37,177 nucleotides of DNA from a virus. Below are positions 1 to 37,084 of the stretch, one piece after another. The stretch's first letter is position 1. Each line of letters starts with the position of its first letter. The stretch is taken from the IMG/VR virus record IMGVR_UViG_3300011115_000461, positions 1-37,177 of that record. One strand, written 5' to 3'. The notes under the pieces are model-generated. The model ran no database searches. It had not been told where the DNA came from and saw nothing but the letters and a program-made list of their open reading frames with translations. Made by a program: the position numbers and the translations under genes.

Positions 1-131
1 TGACGCAGCTCTATAACCCGAAGTGCGAAAAGTGCGGCCGCTGGATGCGGATGGTCTACACGCCAGCCGCCATCGTCTTCACCGGCAAGGGTTGGGCAAA
101 GAAGGACCGAGCAAAGAAGGAGGGCAAGTGA
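1..131 (+). CDS. FmdB-like zinc-ribbon protein, 3' end only
   Basis: The gene runs in from the left edge; reading in frame from base 3 gives 42 residues ending at TGA 129-131. The visible part has one Cys-x2-Cys knuckle (KCEKCG) followed by a segment resembling the FmdB/regulatory zinc-ribbon family, with the family's typical FTGKGWAKKD near the C-terminus and a Lys-rich tail. FmdB-type proteins are small zinc-binding proteins of uncertain role, common in actinobacterial phages. The stop overlaps the GTG of the next gene, so the two are probably translationally coupled. The first zinc knuckle, if there is one, lies outside the window. Confidence 0.6.
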   Translation, partial: TQLYNPKCEKCGRWMRMVYTPAAIVFTGKGWAKKDRAKKEGK

Positions 132-1471
132 AGCACGCTTCATTCTTCAGCGGAGTCGGTGGTCTTGACCTCGGCTTTGAGCGCGCTGGCATTGAGACGG
201 TGAGCGTCAGCGAGATTGACCCATACGCCAACGCGGTGTTGGCTGAGCGATTCTCAGACGCTCCGAATCTGGGAAGCATCACGGAGGTGGAAGCACATGA
301 CATCCCAGAAGCAGACATCTGGTCAGGCGGGTTCCCCTGTCAAGACCTTAGCGTTGCAGGAAAGCGGGCAGGATTTGCAGGCAAACGCTCAAGCCTTGCC
401 TTCACCTTCCTTGACCTTGTTGAGCAACGCCGACCTCGGTGGCTCGTGTTGGAGAACGTCCCTGGACTCTTCAGCTCCAACAAAGGGGCTGACTTCGGAA
501 GGCTTCTCTATGAAATGGAACAACTCGGGTATGGTGTATCGTGGCGAACTCTGGACGCTCGCTACTTCGGAGTCGCCCAGCGACGCCGCCGAGTGTTCAT
601 TGTCGCAAGTCTTGAATCCGACCGCGCCGGTGAGGTTCTCCTTGAGTGCGAGGGCTGCAAGCGGCATCCTTCGCCGAGCCAACCGCAGAGGCAAGGTGCT
701 GCCAGCGGCGCTCCAGACGGCTCTGGAATCGCTGGCGCAATCACCAGACGATTCAGCAAGGGAGTCAACAGCACCATTGACGAGCCACTCATCGTCAGTC
801 CGTCGCCTGACTCCGACGGAGTGCGAGCGGCTGATGGGTTGGCCAGACGGCTGGACAATCAGCAAGGAGTGGAAGACCCGCAAAGGGTAGGGAACTTTGA
901 GATGTATGACTTCCCTGCTGACTCTGTAGCGCCTTCAATGAACGCACTCAGGGCAAGGGACTTGATGGCGTACCAGACGCGGGTAGACGAGAAGAACGGC
1001 AACTTCAGCCTGAGCGAAGCCGAGGTTGCCAACTCGCTCTCTGCCCTCTGGCCAAGCGACACGAGCCACCGCTCGATGACGCTGGTTCAGGCAGTGATTC
1101 AAGACAGCCGAGAAATGGCAAACAAGACGCAGAACGGTTCAGGAGTTAGTACCGAAGACATCGCCTACACACTTACTCGTATTGACCGACCTGCGGTCTT
1201 CCGTAAATCAGCACGAGCGCAGACAAACAAAGACTCAGAGACCTGGGTTGAGGGTGACGTTGCCAACACGCTGAACTCCTTTGACGTTGGTGATGTCAGG
1301 ACAACGCACGCCATTGTAGGTGGCACGCAAGACGAGGATGCTCTACTGCCAGTCGGACTGGACTCACACCGCTACCGATGCTGCGGCAACGGCGTGGTGG
1401 CTCCAGTCGCCGAGTGGATTGGCAGGAGGATTGTGGAAGTAGACCGCCGATGGCGGGAGGAGGGTAAGTGA
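128..1471 (+). CDS. DNA cytosine-C5 methyltransferase
   Basis: Predicted 447-residue cytosine-C5 DNA methyltransferase. From the GTG at 128, motif I (FFSGVGGLDLGFERAG) comes almost at once, then motif IV with the catalytic Pro-Cys-Gln (GGFPCQDLSVAGKRAG), motif VI (ENVPGLF), motif VIII (QRRRRVFIVAS), a long variable target-recognition region and a motif X-like end (YRCCGNGVVAPVAEWIG). An AGGAGGG Shine-Dalgarno sits 4 bases upstream of GTG 128; in-frame codons back to base 23 are read-through of the previous gene. The usual LTPxECERL helix before motif X is not seen in this frame but appears in the overlapping frame (297-890). The target sequence cannot be read from the protein. It may protect phage DNA from host restriction. 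The next gene starts within its stop codon. Confidence 0.9.
   Translation: MKHASFFSGVGGLDLGFERAGIETVSVSEIDPYANAVLAERFSDAPNLGSITEVEAHDIPEADIWSGGFPCQDLSVAGKRAGFAGKRSSLAFTFLDLVEQRRPRWLVLENVPGLFSSNKGADFGRLLYEMEQLGYGVSWRTLDARYFGVAQRRRRVFIVASLESDRAGEVLLECEGCKRHPSPSQPQRQGAASGAPDGSGIAGAITRRFSKGVNSTIDEPLIVSPSPDSDGVRAADGLARRLDNQQGVEDPQRVGNFEMYDFPADSVAPSMNALRARDLMAYQTRVDEKNGNFSLSEAEVANSLSALWPSDTSHRSMTLVQAVIQDSREMANKTQNGSGVSTEDIAYTLTRIDRPAVFRKSARAQTNKDSETWVEGDVANTLNSFDVGDVRTTHAIVGGTQDEDALLPVGLDSHRYRCCGNGVVAPVAEWIGRRIVEVDRRWREEGK
297..890 (+). CDS. Overprinted gene inside the C5-methyltransferase, MTase-associated protein
   Basis: A 197-residue frame lies wholly inside the methyltransferase gene in a different reading frame. 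It looks real rather than a shadow. ATG 297 has GGAGG at 283-287, 9 bases upstream. The protein carries SPVKTLALQESG near the N-terminus, then SLSARAASGILRRANRRGK, then RRLTPTECERLMGWPDGWT near the end. From memory these match a protein type found with phage cytosine methyltransferases. The last block is the conserved LTPxECERLxGxPD helix of C5-methyltransferases, which the main frame lacks at its expected place. It may act as a partner subunit or supply part of the methyltransferase fold. An upstream in-frame ATG at 216 has no good ribosome site. Confidence 0.55.
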   Translation: MTSQKQTSGQAGSPVKTLALQESGQDLQANAQALPSPSLTLLSNADLGGSCWRTSLDSSAPTKGLTSEGFSMKWNNSGMVYRGELWTLATSESPSDAAECSLSQVLNPTAPVRFSLSARAASGILRRANRRGKVLPAALQTALESLAQSPDDSARESTAPLTSHSSSVRRLTPTECERLMGWPDGWTISKEWKTRKG

Positions 1472-2400
1472 GCAAGCAATACGAGTTCGTTCGCGCTGAG
1501 CAAAGGTCCGAGGTCTGGCACGCGCTTAGAAAGGACGGCATCACGGCGACCGACGTGTCAGTCATCGCTGGGCTGAATCCGTACAAGACGCCGTATCAAC
1601 TCTGGGCTGAGAAGTTGGGCAAGTACGAGCCAGAACCAGTAGGACCAGCAGCCGTTCGCGGCATCCTCCTGGAGAACGCAGTGGCGGAGTTCTACGAGAT
1701 GGAGACTGGCCGCGAACTGCGACGCAGCAACGGCATCGTCCGACTCAAGGAGATTCCCTGGGTGATGGCATCACTCGACCGCACCATCGTCGGCGAGGAG
1801 GGTTTGGTGGAAATCAAGACCAGCACCTCACCGCGCTGGACGTTCTCGGCGCCACCAGAAGTTGCCGCGCAAGTGCAGTGGCAGATGTTTGTCACCGGCG
1901 CACCGTGGGTGGACGTCGCAGTCCTACTTGGTGGTCTGGTCTTCCGCATTGAGCGAGTGGAGGCGAGCCTGGACTTCCAGACCGAGTTGTACCGCAAGGC
2001 AGTGGAGTTTAGGAACGCACTCGCAACGGAGACGCCGCCAACCTTGCAGGGTCAGGACTCAGACGCGCTCGCGGCCGTCGTGCCGCAGGCGAGCGAAGAG
2101 TACGCGCAGGCAACCGATGGCATTGACCGCGTGGCGGCGCTCTATGCCGAAAAGCAGTACGAGGCGAAGCTGCTGGATGAGGAACTTCAGAACCTCGCCA
2201 TCTCGCTGAAGGAAGCCATCGGCGAGAAGGCTGGCATCGTCGGGAACGGATGGCAGGCAACGTGGAAGCAGAACAAAGCGTCGGTCAAGACCGACTGGAA
2301 GGAGGTCGCAGCAAAGGTTGACCCGAAGATTATTGAAGCCGCGACGCGGGAAGTTCCCGGCGCGCGAGTCTTCCGATTCAAGAACGAGGAGGCACTATGA
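1468..2400 (+). CDS. YqaJ-family viral exonuclease (block A copy)
   Basis: 310-residue YqaJ/lambda-exonuclease-fold nuclease that would resect double-stranded ends to give single strands for the annealing protein encoded next. The N-terminus has the family pattern of Arg, then ITATDVSVIAGLNPYKTP and LWAEKLG. The active-site region follows as ASLDRTIV and LVEIKTSTS, the Asp...Glu-x-Lys of the PD-(D/E)XK fold, and QVQWQMFVTG is the usual helix after it. GTG 1468 overlaps the methyltransferase stop and follows GGGAGGAGGG. A diverged copy lies at 28599-29561. This copy writes Glu-Ile as GAAATC at 1810, avoiding GATC, where the other copy has GAGATC. Confidence 0.9.
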   Translation: MSKQYEFVRAEQRSEVWHALRKDGITATDVSVIAGLNPYKTPYQLWAEKLGKYEPEPVGPAAVRGILLENAVAEFYEMETGRELRRSNGIVRLKEIPWVMASLDRTIVGEEGLVEIKTSTSPRWTFSAPPEVAAQVQWQMFVTGAPWVDVAVLLGGLVFRIERVEASLDFQTELYRKAVEFRNALATETPPTLQGQDSDALAAVVPQASEEYAQATDGIDRVAALYAEKQYEAKLLDEELQNLAISLKEAIGEKAGIVGNGWQATWKQNKASVKTDWKEVAAKVDPKIIEAATREVPGARVFRFKNEEAL

Positions 2401-3122
2401 GCAAGGAGATTGCAGCGGCGCTGTTGGCGCCATTCGAGGAGAAGGACTTGAAGCATCGTCCAGGCAGGGCTGGGATGACATTCACCTACGCAGATGCGCG
2501 AGCAGTCGCCCAGAGGCTAGATGACGTTCTCGGCATTGAGAACTGGCAGTTCGAGGTCAAGGTGGCTGACCCAGCGCGTGCCGTAGTTCACGGTTCGCTG
2601 GTCGCAGTCATTGAGGGCAAGACGACGCTGCGACAGGACTTCGGCTATCCAAATTCTGCTCAGGACGACGAGCCGCTGAAGTCAGCAGCCTCGGATGCAC
2701 TCCGAAGGTGTGCCGCGCAGCTCGGCGTGGGTAGGAGCCTCTACAGCCCAGAGAAAGGCGTAGGGGGTGCTGGGATACCACTTGGGCGTGTTCCGCGCCT
2801 CTCCGTGGCTCCTACACCCCTCTCCGTTGATTCTACGAGCGGTCTGACGGATGACCAGGCACTGGCGCTCAAGGCTGCAATGGTGTTCGCCGAGTCTGTC
2901 GGTGGCGACACCTGCTCACACGGTACGCCGTGGGCGCTAAAGCCAGGTGGCGTCAGCAAGGTCAGCGGCAAGCCTTACGGTCCGTTCTATGCGGCCAGCC
3001 ATAAGACGCCTGACGGCGGATGGTGCAAGGACAAGCCAAGCCGAGAGTTCCTCGCCTCGCATCCGACCGAAGAGCCAAAGCCACGGATGGTTCCTGAAGA
3101 CCTCAGCGAGCTGCCGTTCTAA
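2397..3122 (+). CDS. Rad52/Rad22-type single-strand annealing protein (block A copy)
   Basis: 241-residue protein of the Rad52/Rad22 (DdrA-like) type. It would coat resected DNA and promote strand annealing together with the YqaJ exonuclease just upstream. Residues about 1-120 hold the recognisable core: GMTFTYADARAVAQRLDDV, WQFEVKV, then LRQDFGYPNSAQDDEPLKSA and SDALRRCAAQLGVGRSLY. After a variable linker, the C-terminal part has spaced Cys/His residues (GDTCSHG, YAASHK, WCKDK) that may bind a metal, and it ends in an acidic LSELPF tail. The ATG overlaps the YqaJ stop. The block B copy at 30117 shares the core and the tail. Confidence 0.85.
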   Translation: MSKEIAAALLAPFEEKDLKHRPGRAGMTFTYADARAVAQRLDDVLGIENWQFEVKVADPARAVVHGSLVAVIEGKTTLRQDFGYPNSAQDDEPLKSAASDALRRCAAQLGVGRSLYSPEKGVGGAGIPLGRVPRLSVAPTPLSVDSTSGLTDDQALALKAAMVFAESVGGDTCSHGTPWALKPGGVSKVSGKPYGPFYAASHKTPDGGWCKDKPSREFLASHPTEEPKPRMVPEDLSELPF

Positions 3123-3478
3123 TGGGACGGAGGCGGCAACTATTGCGGACGCCACAGGCGGCTAGAAACGAGGTGATTCGAGCCAAAGAGACACCTGAGC
3201 AAAAGTCGCTGAGGAATCTTCGCAGTCGGTTGAATCACTACAAAATATCTGTCTACGAGGCAGAAGACATGCTTGGTCGGCAAGGCGGTGGCTGTGCAAT
3301 CTGCGCTCGTCAGATTCGACTCTCGGAGCCGTATCAGGCGAACATTGACCATAGTCACACCAGTGGCAAGATTCGTGGAATCTTGTGCGCTTTCTGCAAC
3401 AAGGGTCTCAAGTATTACAAGCACCTGAGGCGACTGGATTCTGTCGTCCAGGCTTATCTAGGAGAGGAGGAGGACTGA
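3122..3478 (+). CDS. Recombination endonuclease VII-like (block A copy)
   Basis: 118-residue protein of the endonuclease VII family (T4 gp49-like), which cuts Holliday junctions and branched DNA before or during packaging. It shows the His-Cys type metal site: CAIC in the middle, then IDHSHTSGKIRGILCAFCN, and a short helical C-terminal part. This is close to the family's minimal length. The ATG shares a base with the Rad52-like stop (TAATG). In block B the same function (31342) lies after, not before, the winged-helix gene, so this gene has moved between the two modules. Confidence 0.85.
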   Translation: MGRRRQLLRTPQAARNEVIRAKETPEQKSLRNLRSRLNHYKISVYEAEDMLGRQGGGCAICARQIRLSEPYQANIDHSHTSGKIRGILCAFCNKGLKYYKHLRRLDSVVQAYLGEEED

Positions 3479-3479
3479 A

Positions 3480-3917
3480 ATGACACTCTGGATTAAGTGG
3501 TCAGCGAACGCACACAAGGATGCAGTCATCGCCAGCCTGTCGGACATCGAGTTCCGCGCGTTCATCACCATCCTGTCTGAAGCCAAGCAGCTTCGGAACG
3601 GTGGCGAGTTCCGCGACCGGCGACACGTCGCTGCGGTGGTTGGCGCACGGCTCGCCAGGACCCTTCCGCGGCTCATCGCCGAAGGCCTCCTGACGGAATC
3701 TGGAGAGGGTCTCGTCACCATCTCGAACTGGTCTCGATGGCAAGTGGACCCAACCTCGACCATTCGGCAACAGCGCGCTCGTGCGGGAAAAGGGCTTGTG
3801 TCACGGAATAGTCACGCTACAGAGAAGAGAGAGAGTAGAGAGAGAGAAGAGCAGACTCTTACTAAAGCGAGCAGGATGATTCCACTTCACGAGATTCTGG
3901 GAGGGAGCAAGGGATGA
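3480..3917 (+). CDS. Winged-helix-like protein, possible replication organiser (block A copy)
   Basis: 145-residue protein. The first ~95 residues look like a winged-helix DNA-binding domain (WIKWSANAHKD, EFRAFITIL, LIAEGLLTESGEGLVTISN, WQVDPTS). A highly charged tail (KRESREREEQ) and a short conserved C-terminal helix ending in LHEILGG follow. The layout is like phage replisome-organiser N-terminal domains, but that assignment is inference. GGAGGAGG lies shortly upstream of the ATG. The tail is encoded by a long AG-rich tract at about 3821-3853, and the block B homologue (30908) has a similar tract at the same place. Confidence 0.6.
   Translation: MTLWIKWSANAHKDAVIASLSDIEFRAFITILSEAKQLRNGGEFRDRRHVAAVVGARLARTLPRLIAEGLLTESGEGLVTISNWSRWQVDPTSTIRQQRARAGKGLVSRNSHATEKRESREREEQTLTKASRMIPLHEILGGSKG
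3821..3853 (+). repeat. AG-rich homopurine tract inside the winged-helix gene
   Basis: A run of A and G with only single T and C interruptions covers the end of the winged-helix gene and is made mostly of GA dinucleotides. It encodes the Arg/Glu-rich tail. A comparable tract sits at about 31235-31264 in the block B homologue. Such tracts can form triplexes or easily melted DNA, and phage origins can lie within initiator genes as in lambda O. An origin here is only a suggestion. Confidence 0.5.
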
Positions 3918-4276
3918 TGAGGAACGGAGCAGCACCGCACATTGACTTCAGCGACCTGGAGGGAGTGATACCGAGCAACCCGAAACTCTTGCCAAGCAAC
4001 GTGGACTTCATCTTGGAGAGGCGAGGGAAGTTTCTCTTTGCAGAGTTCAAGAAGCCGGATGAGCAAATCTCTGGAGGACAGAAGATTCTCTTGGAGGCGT
4101 TGAGCAGGGTGCCAGGCTTCAAGGTGTTTGTTGCTACGGGATGGAACGAAGGCACGCACCTCGTGGTCACGCAGCTCACGATGATTCGAGGCACGGACCG
4201 TGAGACCGTGTTCTGCGACCTTGAGGGCTTCAAGCAAAGAATCGCTGCGTGGTACGCGGCAGTGGAGGCAGCATGA
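3914..4276 (+). CDS. PD-(D/E)XK-type small nuclease
   Basis: 120-residue protein resembling VRR-NUC or related PD-(D/E)XK nucleases. The likely active site is SNVDFIL followed by FLFAEFKKPD, giving an Asp...Glu-x-Lys pair, and then SGGQKILLEAL, which resembles the helix after the catalytic strand in this fold. It starts at ATG 3914 overlapping the previous stop, and its own stop overlaps the start of the kinase. No copy is present at the matching place in block B, where a different nuclease-like gene (29558) lies after YqaJ. The family assignment is by motif only. Confidence 0.6.
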   Translation: MMRNGAAPHIDFSDLEGVIPSNPKLLPSNVDFILERRGKFLFAEFKKPDEQISGGQKILLEALSRVPGFKVFVATGWNEGTHLVVTQLTMIRGTDRETVFCDLEGFKQRIAAWYAAVEAA

Positions 4277-8937: not shown

Positions 8938-10149
8938 ATGAGCCGCATCGCCTGGTACTCAAACGCATGCCACATCCCTTCGGGCTATGGGATGCAGACC
9001 GCACAAGTCGTTCACCAGATGGCGAAGGACGGTCACGAGGTCGCTATCAGCGCGAATCACGGCGCCAGCGTCATGATGAACTGCGCGCACGGTCATCCCA
9101 TTTTCCCTGAAGGCTTGATGCGCTACTCAATTGACGCAGCGCCAGACACCATGAAAGCGTGGATTGAGGACAAGCCTGGCTTCGGCGTCGTGCTGTTTGA
9201 CCTCTGGCCGCTCGTCGGCGTACAGGGATTCAATGAGCTGAACCTCGCATGCTGGACGCCGGTTGACCATGACCCAACGCCTCCGATGGTTGCCAAGTTC
9301 ATCCTTGACGGCGGTCACCACGCCATTGCCATGAGCCGCTTCGGTGAGCAGCGCCTGCTTGACGCTGGTGTCTCACGCGAGAACCTCACCTATATTCCGC
9401 ACGGCATTGACACGACGCTCTTCAGCGACCGAGGCAAGGGCGCGCGGCAGCCGATGGGAATCCCAGAGGACGCCTTCCTCGTCGTGACGAACGCAGCCAA
9501 CCGTGGACGTATTCCAGTTCGCAAGGCGTTCGGTGAGATGGCTGACGCCATGAGCAAGTTCATGAAAGACCGACCCGATGTTCACTGGATGATTCACACC
9601 GAGCCGAACGGACACAGCGAAGGCGTGAACATTCCGCGCCTCGTCGCGCACTTGGGCATTGACCAACAGCGCGTGCGCTATCCGCACCCAGTTCACTTCC
9701 GCAACGGCATCCCGCAAGACGCTATCGCGCAGATGTATTCAGCCGCTGACGTGCAGCTACTCACCTCGATGGGCGAAGGCTTCGGCATCCCAGCCGTGGA
9801 GAGTCAGGCATGCGGGACGCCAGTCATCGTCTCTGACTTCAGCGCACAGCCAGAACTTATTGGCGTTCATGGAAAGGCGGTGCCGGTACAGCGAGTATGG
9901 GACGAATATCAAGCGTCGTTCTTCGGCATCCCAAACGTGGCTGCGACTGCGGCCGCGCTGCAAGAAGTCTACGAAGAGACGAAGGCTGGCAAGGTGGACC
10001 GCGCTGCGGTCAGCGCTGAGATGTGGCGCTACGACCAGACCAAGTTGTACGAGGCTTCGTGGAAGCCGCTCATCGAGTTGATGACGGCGCGCAAGCGACC
10101 AGGCGAGCCGCTCAACCGAGCGCAACGCCGCGCAACTAAGTCCAAGTAG
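8938..10149 (+). CDS. GT4-type glycosyltransferase (block A copy)
   Basis: 403-residue GT-B glycosyltransferase of the GT4 family. The N-terminal half starts with a Gly-rich donor/acceptor region (SGYGMQTAQVVHQM). The C-terminal half has TYIPHGIDTTLF and the nucleotide-sugar signature GEGFGIPAVESQACGTPVIV. It would transfer a sugar to phage DNA bases, a virion protein or a host surface glycan; the acceptor is not readable. GGAGCGAGGAC lies before the ATG. This is the last block A gene; the sequence changes character just after its stop. The block B homologue is 35870-37084. Confidence 0.9.
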   Translation: MSRIAWYSNACHIPSGYGMQTAQVVHQMAKDGHEVAISANHGASVMMNCAHGHPIFPEGLMRYSIDAAPDTMKAWIEDKPGFGVVLFDLWPLVGVQGFNELNLACWTPVDHDPTPPMVAKFILDGGHHAIAMSRFGEQRLLDAGVSRENLTYIPHGIDTTLFSDRGKGARQPMGIPEDAFLVVTNAANRGRIPVRKAFGEMADAMSKFMKDRPDVHWMIHTEPNGHSEGVNIPRLVAHLGIDQQRVRYPHPVHFRNGIPQDAIAQMYSAADVQLLTSMGEGFGIPAVESQACGTPVIVSDFSAQPELIGVHGKAVPVQRVWDEYQASFFGIPNVAATAAALQEVYEETKAGKVDRAAVSAEMWRYDQTKLYEASWKPLIELMTARKRPGEPLNRAQRRATKSK

Positions 10150-35869: not shown

Positions 35870-37084
35870 ATGAGCAAGCCGATCATCATCGTGAGCAACA
35901 CCCCAGTCGCGCCGACTGGCTACGGTCAGCAGACCAAGCAACTGGCACAACGCATTAAGGCGGACGGCATTCCTGTCGGTGTCTCGGCCAACTATGGCGC
36001 TCCGACCAACATGGAGGTTGAGGGCATCCAGGTATTCGCCGAGGGGCTGATCAAGTATGCCAACGACTCAGGACCAGAGAACATCGCTATGGCCGCCTCA
36101 CAGGGTGGCTTTGGCATCACGCTGTTCGATGTGTGGGTGGCGATCAACGAGGCGTACCACAGCCTCCCTATCGTCGCGTGGGTGCCAATCGACCACGACC
36201 CTGTGCCGCCGCGCGTCGCGGAGTGGTGCATCAAGGGTGGCAACAAGCTCATCGTGGCAATGAGCAAGCATGGCGAGCAGGCACTCTTGAAGGCAGGCGT
36301 ACCACGCGACCGACTGGTCTATATCCCACACGCCATTGATACCAAGATCTGGACTGCGGATGGACCGACCTGCCGCGATGTCCTACGCGTGCCGGAGGAT
36401 GCCCACCTGACCGTGATCACCGCCATGAACAAGGGCAAGCGCAAGTCATTTCCTGAGATGTTGAAGGCGTGGTCGCTCTTCGCCGCAGCGCACAAGGATG
36501 CCTACCTGTACCTGCACACCGACCGCTTCGGTCACCTGGACGGCATCAACCTGATCCCTGTCCTCAAGGCCGTCGGCGCTCCAGAGGATCGCATTCGCTG
36601 GGTGAACAGCAGCCAGATGCGTGCAGGCATCGCAGCCGAGACGCTCGCCAGCATCATGCGCTCCGCCGATGTGCTGCTCTTGGCTTCACGCGGTGAGGGC
36701 TTTGGTATCCCTGTGATCGAGGCACAGGCAGTCGGTACGCCTGTCATCGTCACCGACTGGACGGCACAGCCGGAGTTGGTGAGGGATCACGGCTACATTG
36801 CTGACGGTCAGGAAGACTGGGATGAGATGCAGGAGTCCTACTGGAAGATCCCTCATGTCGGTCATATCTTGCAGGGGCTGGAGAACAACTACACCGACAC
36901 CAAGAGCGGCCGTGTAGATCGCAAGGCGCTCGCTGCCAAGATGTTTGAGTACGACGCTGACTATGTCTACACAACCAAGTGGCAGCCACTCTTCGCCGAC
37001 ATCTTCATCGGCAAGATCCGCCTAGGCGTACCGGCAGAGCAGCCAGTCGCACTGAACCGCGCACAGCGGAGGAAGGCTAAGTGA
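35870..37084 (+). CDS. GT4-type glycosyltransferase (block B copy)
   Basis: 404-residue homologue of 8938-10149. It shows PTGYGQQTKQLAQRI, VAWVPIDHDP, LVYIPHAIDTKIW, and the signature GEGFGIPVIEAQAVGTPVIV. The C-terminus ends in LNRAQRRKAK, close to the LNRAQRRATK end of copy A. GTAGGAGG precedes the ATG. Here the gene is followed at once by an overlapping small gene, whereas copy A is followed by the junction. Confidence 0.9.
   Translation: MSKPIIIVSNTPVAPTGYGQQTKQLAQRIKADGIPVGVSANYGAPTNMEVEGIQVFAEGLIKYANDSGPENIAMAASQGGFGITLFDVWVAINEAYHSLPIVAWVPIDHDPVPPRVAEWCIKGGNKLIVAMSKHGEQALLKAGVPRDRLVYIPHAIDTKIWTADGPTCRDVLRVPEDAHLTVITAMNKGKRKSFPEMLKAWSLFAAAHKDAYLYLHTDRFGHLDGINLIPVLKAVGAPEDRIRWVNSSQMRAGIAAETLASIMRSADVLLLASRGEGFGIPVIEAQAVGTPVIVTDWTAQPELVRDHGYIADGQEDWDEMQESYWKIPHVGHILQGLENNYTDTKSGRVDRKALAAKMFEYDADYVYTTKWQPLFADIFIGKIRLGVPAEQPVALNRAQRRKAK

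Follow-up and report, generated by a model that had tools for sequence, protein, structure and literature searches.

The window analysed here, the whole 37,177-nucleotide stretch of IMG/VR virus record IMGVR_UViG_3300011115_000461, carries near its start a gene for a predicted C5-cytosine DNA methyltransferase (C5-MTase) that precedes genes for a RecE-like exonuclease, an Erf-like annealing protein, and endonuclease VII. The portal, head protease, and major head protein genes found farther on identify the virus as a tailed phage. No restriction gene was found among the ten proteins tested. Two genes of the window, at 8938-10149 and at 35870-37084 near its end, match one glycosyltransferase family (phrog_2170).

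The methyltransferase locus is made up of two overlapping reading frames, referred to here as alpha and beta. Its features, numbered along the window, are as follows.

128..1471, plus strand: alpha chain, C5-cytosine DNA methyltransferase by sequence, GTG start, 447 aa (PF00145, E 2.9e-55; TIGR00675 dcm, E 3.3e-55)
140..163, plus strand: alpha motif I (SFFSGVGG), from sequence
283..288, plus strand: internal Shine-Dalgarno sequence GGAGGT for beta, 8 nt before ATG 297
297..890, plus strand: beta chain, 197 aa, ATG start, wholly nested within alpha in the +1 frame
297..581, plus strand: beta N-terminal extension, residues 1-95, overprinting alpha motifs IV-VIII; fourfold identity 0.63; predicted disordered when modelled alone (AF2 pLDDT ~30-45)
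329..352, plus strand: alpha motif IV (GFPCQDLS) with the catalytic Cys, from sequence; invariant in 49 homologues
578..598, plus strand: alpha motif VIII (QRRRRVF), from sequence
582..746, plus strand: beta middle segment (bM), residues 96-150, SLSQVLN..GILRRANRRGKVLPAAL; helices; placed by profile alignment to Dcm (3lx6/3me5)
798..857, plus strand: beta motif IX (VRRLTPTECERLMGWPDGWT), placed by the PF00145 and TIGR00675 profiles and by HhaI/HaeIII matches; core invariant in 54 homologues
891..1369, plus strand: alpha variable insert from the end of beta to motif X; low conservation, ordinary synonymous divergence
1370..1423, plus strand: alpha motif X (RYRCCGNGVVAPVAEWIG), near-invariant in 49 homologues; C-terminal helix in the AF2 model

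The alpha frame contains motifs I, IV (PCQ), VI (ENV), VIII, and X in the order required of a C5-MTase, and on this basis alpha is a C5-cytosine DNA methyltransferase by predicted activity. Motifs I-VIII, which PF00145 spans, lie near the N-terminus and motif X lies at the C-terminus. In the AF2 model of alpha (mean pLDDT 57), residues 1-170 form the catalytic Rossmann domain of a C5-MTase, about 160 residues of which match M.HhaI/M.HaeIII, while residues 174-294 are disordered and motif X forms a helix. The insert at 891-1369, which differs greatly in length among relatives, possibly has a role in further target recognition. Repeats of the form G..APTLNA.....TRATV occur in the insert of several related alphas.

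No motif IX lies between motifs VIII and X in alpha's frame; it is located in beta, where RRLTPTECERLMGWPDGWT is put at motif IX by both PF00145 and TIGR00675 and where PF00145 separately covers residues 151-190 (profile 269-297, E 1.5e-4). The preliminary description, made from the window alone, had noted motifs IV-VIII in the main frame and the absence from it of a C5-MTase hallmark, and this hallmark is the displaced motif IX. The same partition, with motif IX in beta and missing from alpha, was found in 79 of 80 loci selected by their beta and in 30 of the 31 closest loci selected by their alpha. The frames are related such that alpha codon positions 2, 3, and 1 serve as beta positions 1, 2, and 3.

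Taken by itself, the window offers a suggestive result only, as its +1 frame stays open in 2-3% of synonymous-codon resamplings (P 0.02-0.03), which is too weak to be used as proof of a second gene. Comparison with relatives decides the question. Relatives were collected through a beta-based search (80 loci) and through an alpha motif I-VIII search (80 loci, made up of 79 newly fetched loci and L008), the latter of which is blind to whether the +1 frame is open. All 79 newly fetched alpha-selected loci nevertheless carry a beta-type N-terminal profile in the +1 frame. Over alpha residues 60-200 of 47 deduplicated alpha-selected loci, only 4 stops were observed in the +1 frame, where the codon usage of the individual genes predicts 182; the +2 control frame of the same loci contains 293 against 288 expected. 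Stop codons scattered through the second frame of homologues, which the preliminary description had named as grounds for abandoning its proposal, are thus not seen. Ordinary C5-MTases without a nested beta signal (L169, L170, L171, and L173) have stops near or somewhat below expectation in three cases and slightly above in one; a further C5-MTase of this panel, L174, has an open +1 frame, yet does not match the beta profile.

The relatives fall into two architectures. Group A, which includes the window, carries motif IX on beta and comprises 54 deduplicated relatives from many independent contigs, with both frames constrained. In group B, which takes in 40 of the 48 loci L113-L160, bM is likewise +1 to motif VIII and motif IX lies in alpha's frame. 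Pairwise identity at the fourfold third positions of alpha in the 54 group A relatives is 0.36-0.46 in most bins outside beta and 0.6-0.97 over most of beta. By alignment column, mean identity is 0.63 over alpha residues 57-160 (p 1.3e-12 vs outside) and 0.84 over residues 161-254 (p 1.8e-21 vs outside), compared with 0.47 before beta and 0.40 after it; these p-values are indicative, as their units are related sequences and alignment columns with no correction for phylogeny. Group B shows the same effect over its shorter nested ORF (0.58 and 0.79 vs about 0.31 outside). The earlier proposal would also have fallen had synonymous change over 297-890 been unreduced, and the reduction is instead strong.

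The character of this constraint changes along the overlap. Over alpha 57-160, the substitution pattern indicates that alpha remains the main frame with its silent sites held back. At alpha 161-208 and 220-248, variation is greatest at codon position alpha 1 (beta 3) and smallest at alpha 3 (beta 2); beta is thus the selected frame in these stretches, with alpha carried along. The beta frame is also the better conserved of the two over window positions 608-890, and frame-specific conservation peaks at beta residues 41-82, 116-147, and 168-187. Three blocks, SPVKT, GILRRANRRGK, and RRLTPTECERL, had been cited in favour of the second frame, and all three are present in beta. SPVKT fails as independent evidence, however, being mostly a +1 echo of the catalytic motif PCQDLS, since fourfold sites there (~0.33-0.40) are no more conserved than those outside.

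The predicted start of beta is conserved as well. The preliminary description had placed a Shine-Dalgarno sequence before ATG 297, and relatives bear this out: all group A members (54/54) have an in-frame ATG at most 75 nt ahead of the PC motif, and the beta ATG is preceded at proper spacing by a Shine-Dalgarno match of at least 4 bases in 41/54 and of at least 5 in 35/54. About one quarter of group A relatives have no recognisable Shine-Dalgarno sequence ahead of the beta ATG. In group B, a start codon with a Shine-Dalgarno sequence is present in 27/36. As a control, a start with a match of at least 5 bases was found in frame 0 in 0/54 and 0/36 and in frame +2 in 13/54 and 8/36 (groups A and B, respectively). 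Both marks of overlapping genes, namely reduced synonymous change and avoidance of stops beyond expectation in homologues, are therefore found at this locus, and the sequence comparison firmly supports two protein-coding frames that are each under selection, as first suspected over 297-890.

What beta contributes is apparent from its C-terminal half. A beta profile aligns over residues 89-182 (E ~5e-4) with 3lx6 and 3me5, which we take to be Dcm of E. coli/Shigella (the structure search names both as cytosine-specific methyltransferase), and it also matches HhaI and HaeIII over motif IX. The alignment runs from the stretch that succeeds motif VIII into the beginning of motif IX, although the bM part of the match is modest. 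In Dcm, a single chain with all motifs in one frame, the segment matched by bM comes after motif VIII in frame, while in nearly all relatives of the window bM is +1 relative to motif VIII. Because Dcm holds this segment in one chain with motif VIII, the C-terminal half of beta corresponds to a displaced part of the small domain of an ordinary enzyme, and its homology to Dcm is shown by the profile alignment. AF2 prediction of beta alone (mean pLDDT 49) gives disorder over residues 1-95 and helices at 118-131 and 137-147. Order and disorder are complementary in the two predictions, with the alpha catalytic domain opposite the loose beta N-terminus and the small-domain part of beta opposite the loose middle of alpha. 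Given the low confidence (pLDDT 49 and 57), these models are only a picture consistent with the other evidence.

M.EcoHK31I, which recognises YGGCCR, is a C5-MTase of two polypeptides, the smaller of which is reportedly nested in the larger in another frame, as beta is in alpha (297-890 in 128-1471, +1). Its larger polypeptide contains motifs I-VIII and X and its smaller only motif IX (PMC3404938); alpha and beta divide the motifs in the same way. The window differs in that it holds a phage gene beside recombination genes, with a larger alpha and a long variable insert. Another two-chain enzyme, M.AquI (CYCGRG), is split after motif VIII. Its smaller chain carries motif X as well as IX (PMC3404938), whereas the window keeps X on alpha and nests beta in alpha. 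Both of these enzymes also lack motif IX between VIII and X in a single chain, yet count as C5-MTases.

An annotated parallel is found in Streptococcus phage MM1 1998, whose depositors annotated alpha and beta subunits of a C5 methyltransferase (AAZ82425/AAZ82426). As in the window, beta is nested in the +1 frame and bM is +1 to motif VIII, but the MM1 beta (141 aa) stops before motif IX, which lies in alpha's frame. Along with MM1, group B includes Virus Rctr41k, Caulobacter phage DMCA, and a Bifidobacterium plasmid dcm. The dmt gene of phage P1 and a Vibrio phage have the bM block and an in-frame motif IX and do not match the beta N-terminal profile. In P1 (L164, NC_005856), a +1 ORF at 2216-2707 with the bM/ILRRG block lies inside the C5-MTase half of dmt (1918-4182), and the record has no CDS for it. 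P1 dmt differs from the window in encoding motif IX in frame, in its fusion with a Dam-type domain, and in showing no clear Shine-Dalgarno sequence for the nested ORF, which matched no NCBIfam or PHROG family. By parsimony on a quick tree of alpha N-termini, which has weak support at many forks and joins long branches, motif IX switches frame at least 5 times. In a genome scan, the beta profile hit only 7 loci in bacterial contigs.

Several other arrangements were observed. Four relatives (L116, L118, L122, and L163) are split into three ORFs, the first with motifs I-VIII, the nested one with bM, and a third, separate one with IX and X. C5-MTases of the Faecalibacterium phages Toutatis and Lelie seem to be circularly permuted, with motif I after X, and split over frames. 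Within a G-rich run the two phages diverge in frame, so that only one of them has motifs IV-V in frame with bM, and the point of permutation is not that of the type which PMC5944983 describes as uniform. Some phage C5-MTases contain or overlap a different overlapping chain, of the phrog_1008 type, marked by PTP..SD blocks and an LMGFP/LMGWP motif. The ORFs concerned are as follows.

L165 (Toutatis), 1620-2237 and 1751-3043: split, permuted-looking C5-MTase ORFs
L184 (Lelie), 2115-2528, 2246-2737, and 2299-3543: split, permuted-looking C5-MTase ORFs
L172, 2185-2889: phrog_1008-type overlapping chain (Diva gp50, 'g49 internal gene')
L168, 2470-2973: phrog_1008-type overlapping chain (Rebeuca gp79)

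A literature search for a nested chain in phage methyltransferases beyond EcoHK31I returned nothing relevant but the unrelated hidden HNH of ShiLan. In the mycobacteriophage methylases with a ShiLan domain, a second protein is hidden out of frame in the methylase gene (PMC11855218), but this protein is an HNH endonuclease carried by an inserted mobile element and no subunit of the enzyme.

We therefore favour, with a probability of about 0.86, a phage C5-MTase made of two overlapping chains, in which alpha carries motifs I-VIII and X and beta, made from its own internal ribosome-binding site, carries the small-domain segment and motif IX, the two assembling as one enzyme. One message would serve for both chains, with beta translated from the internal start at 297. 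Alpha would supply AdoMet binding and catalysis through motifs I-VIII and the closing helix through motif X, and beta would supply, from the +1 frame, motif IX and the small-domain segment usually found after motif VIII. The DNA-binding cleft would then lie between the chains, both of which would be needed, and wherever the frames share DNA, one would encode structured protein and the other disordered protein. The motif partition and the conserved beta start are firmly grounded in the alignments; translation of beta and its assembly with alpha are what we infer from them. The preliminary description had offered two chains or an ancient frame rearrangement as alternatives, but these are not exclusive and both gain support, the segment and motif IX having moved to +1 and beta having its own start and ribosome-binding site. 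A frame rearrangement divided the fold, and its parts are most likely produced as separate, overlapping chains which come together in the enzyme.

Programmed ribosomal frameshifting could instead yield one chain, with alpha I-VIII shifted +1 into the C-terminal half of beta and the upstream +1 frame incidental. The structured part of beta does start where alpha motif VIII ends, such that a shift there would join the motifs in order. However, the upstream region (beta 1-95) is itself open and constrained (p 1.3e-12) with a conserved ATG and Shine-Dalgarno sequence, and motif X, being in alpha's frame, would require a second shift; for these reasons frameshifting is improbable. AAAAAAG, the single simple slippery pattern sought, is absent. 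An equally slim chance attaches to beta being a separate protein with its own function (e.g., a regulator or anti-restriction protein) that merely shares DNA with the methyltransferase. Because group B relatives, including P1 dmt, keep the +1 ORF even with motif IX in alpha's frame, motif IX cannot be the only reason for retaining beta. Yet the C-terminal half of beta aligns with the Dcm small-domain segment and in group A has the motif IX that alpha lacks, and across from this segment alpha's frame shows little conservation and is predicted to be disordered. The last alternative, a frameshift of the pseudogene or sequencing-error kind in an otherwise normal single-chain methyltransferase that has no second gene, would fit the marginal open-frame result of the window alone but is refuted by the recurrence of the layout, with both frames constrained, in the 54 deduplicated group A relatives.

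Returning to the two-chain enzyme, we lean towards the nested +1 beta being a general, mostly unannotated, and obligate subunit in a large phage and prophage clade of C5-MTases. It would be kept even where motif IX lies in alpha (group B, with bM also in P1 dmt) since it would always supply the small-domain segment lost by alpha, motif IX having changed frame several times.

The two-chain idea is not new in kind, as M.EcoHK31I has the same motif partition (PMC3404938). Less expected is the breadth of the nested chain, mostly unannotated, among the sampled phage enzymes, including those of group B. Databases list such genes as single, sometimes motif-IX-less methyltransferases, and the annotated chain alone would therefore be expected to fail on expression. 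Once the nested chain is recognised, activity and specificity can be clearly tested for a common type of phage enzyme, including a gene of the model phage P1. The locus is also a strong example of one enzyme with two domains encoded by the same DNA in two frames, each ordered where the other is disordered.
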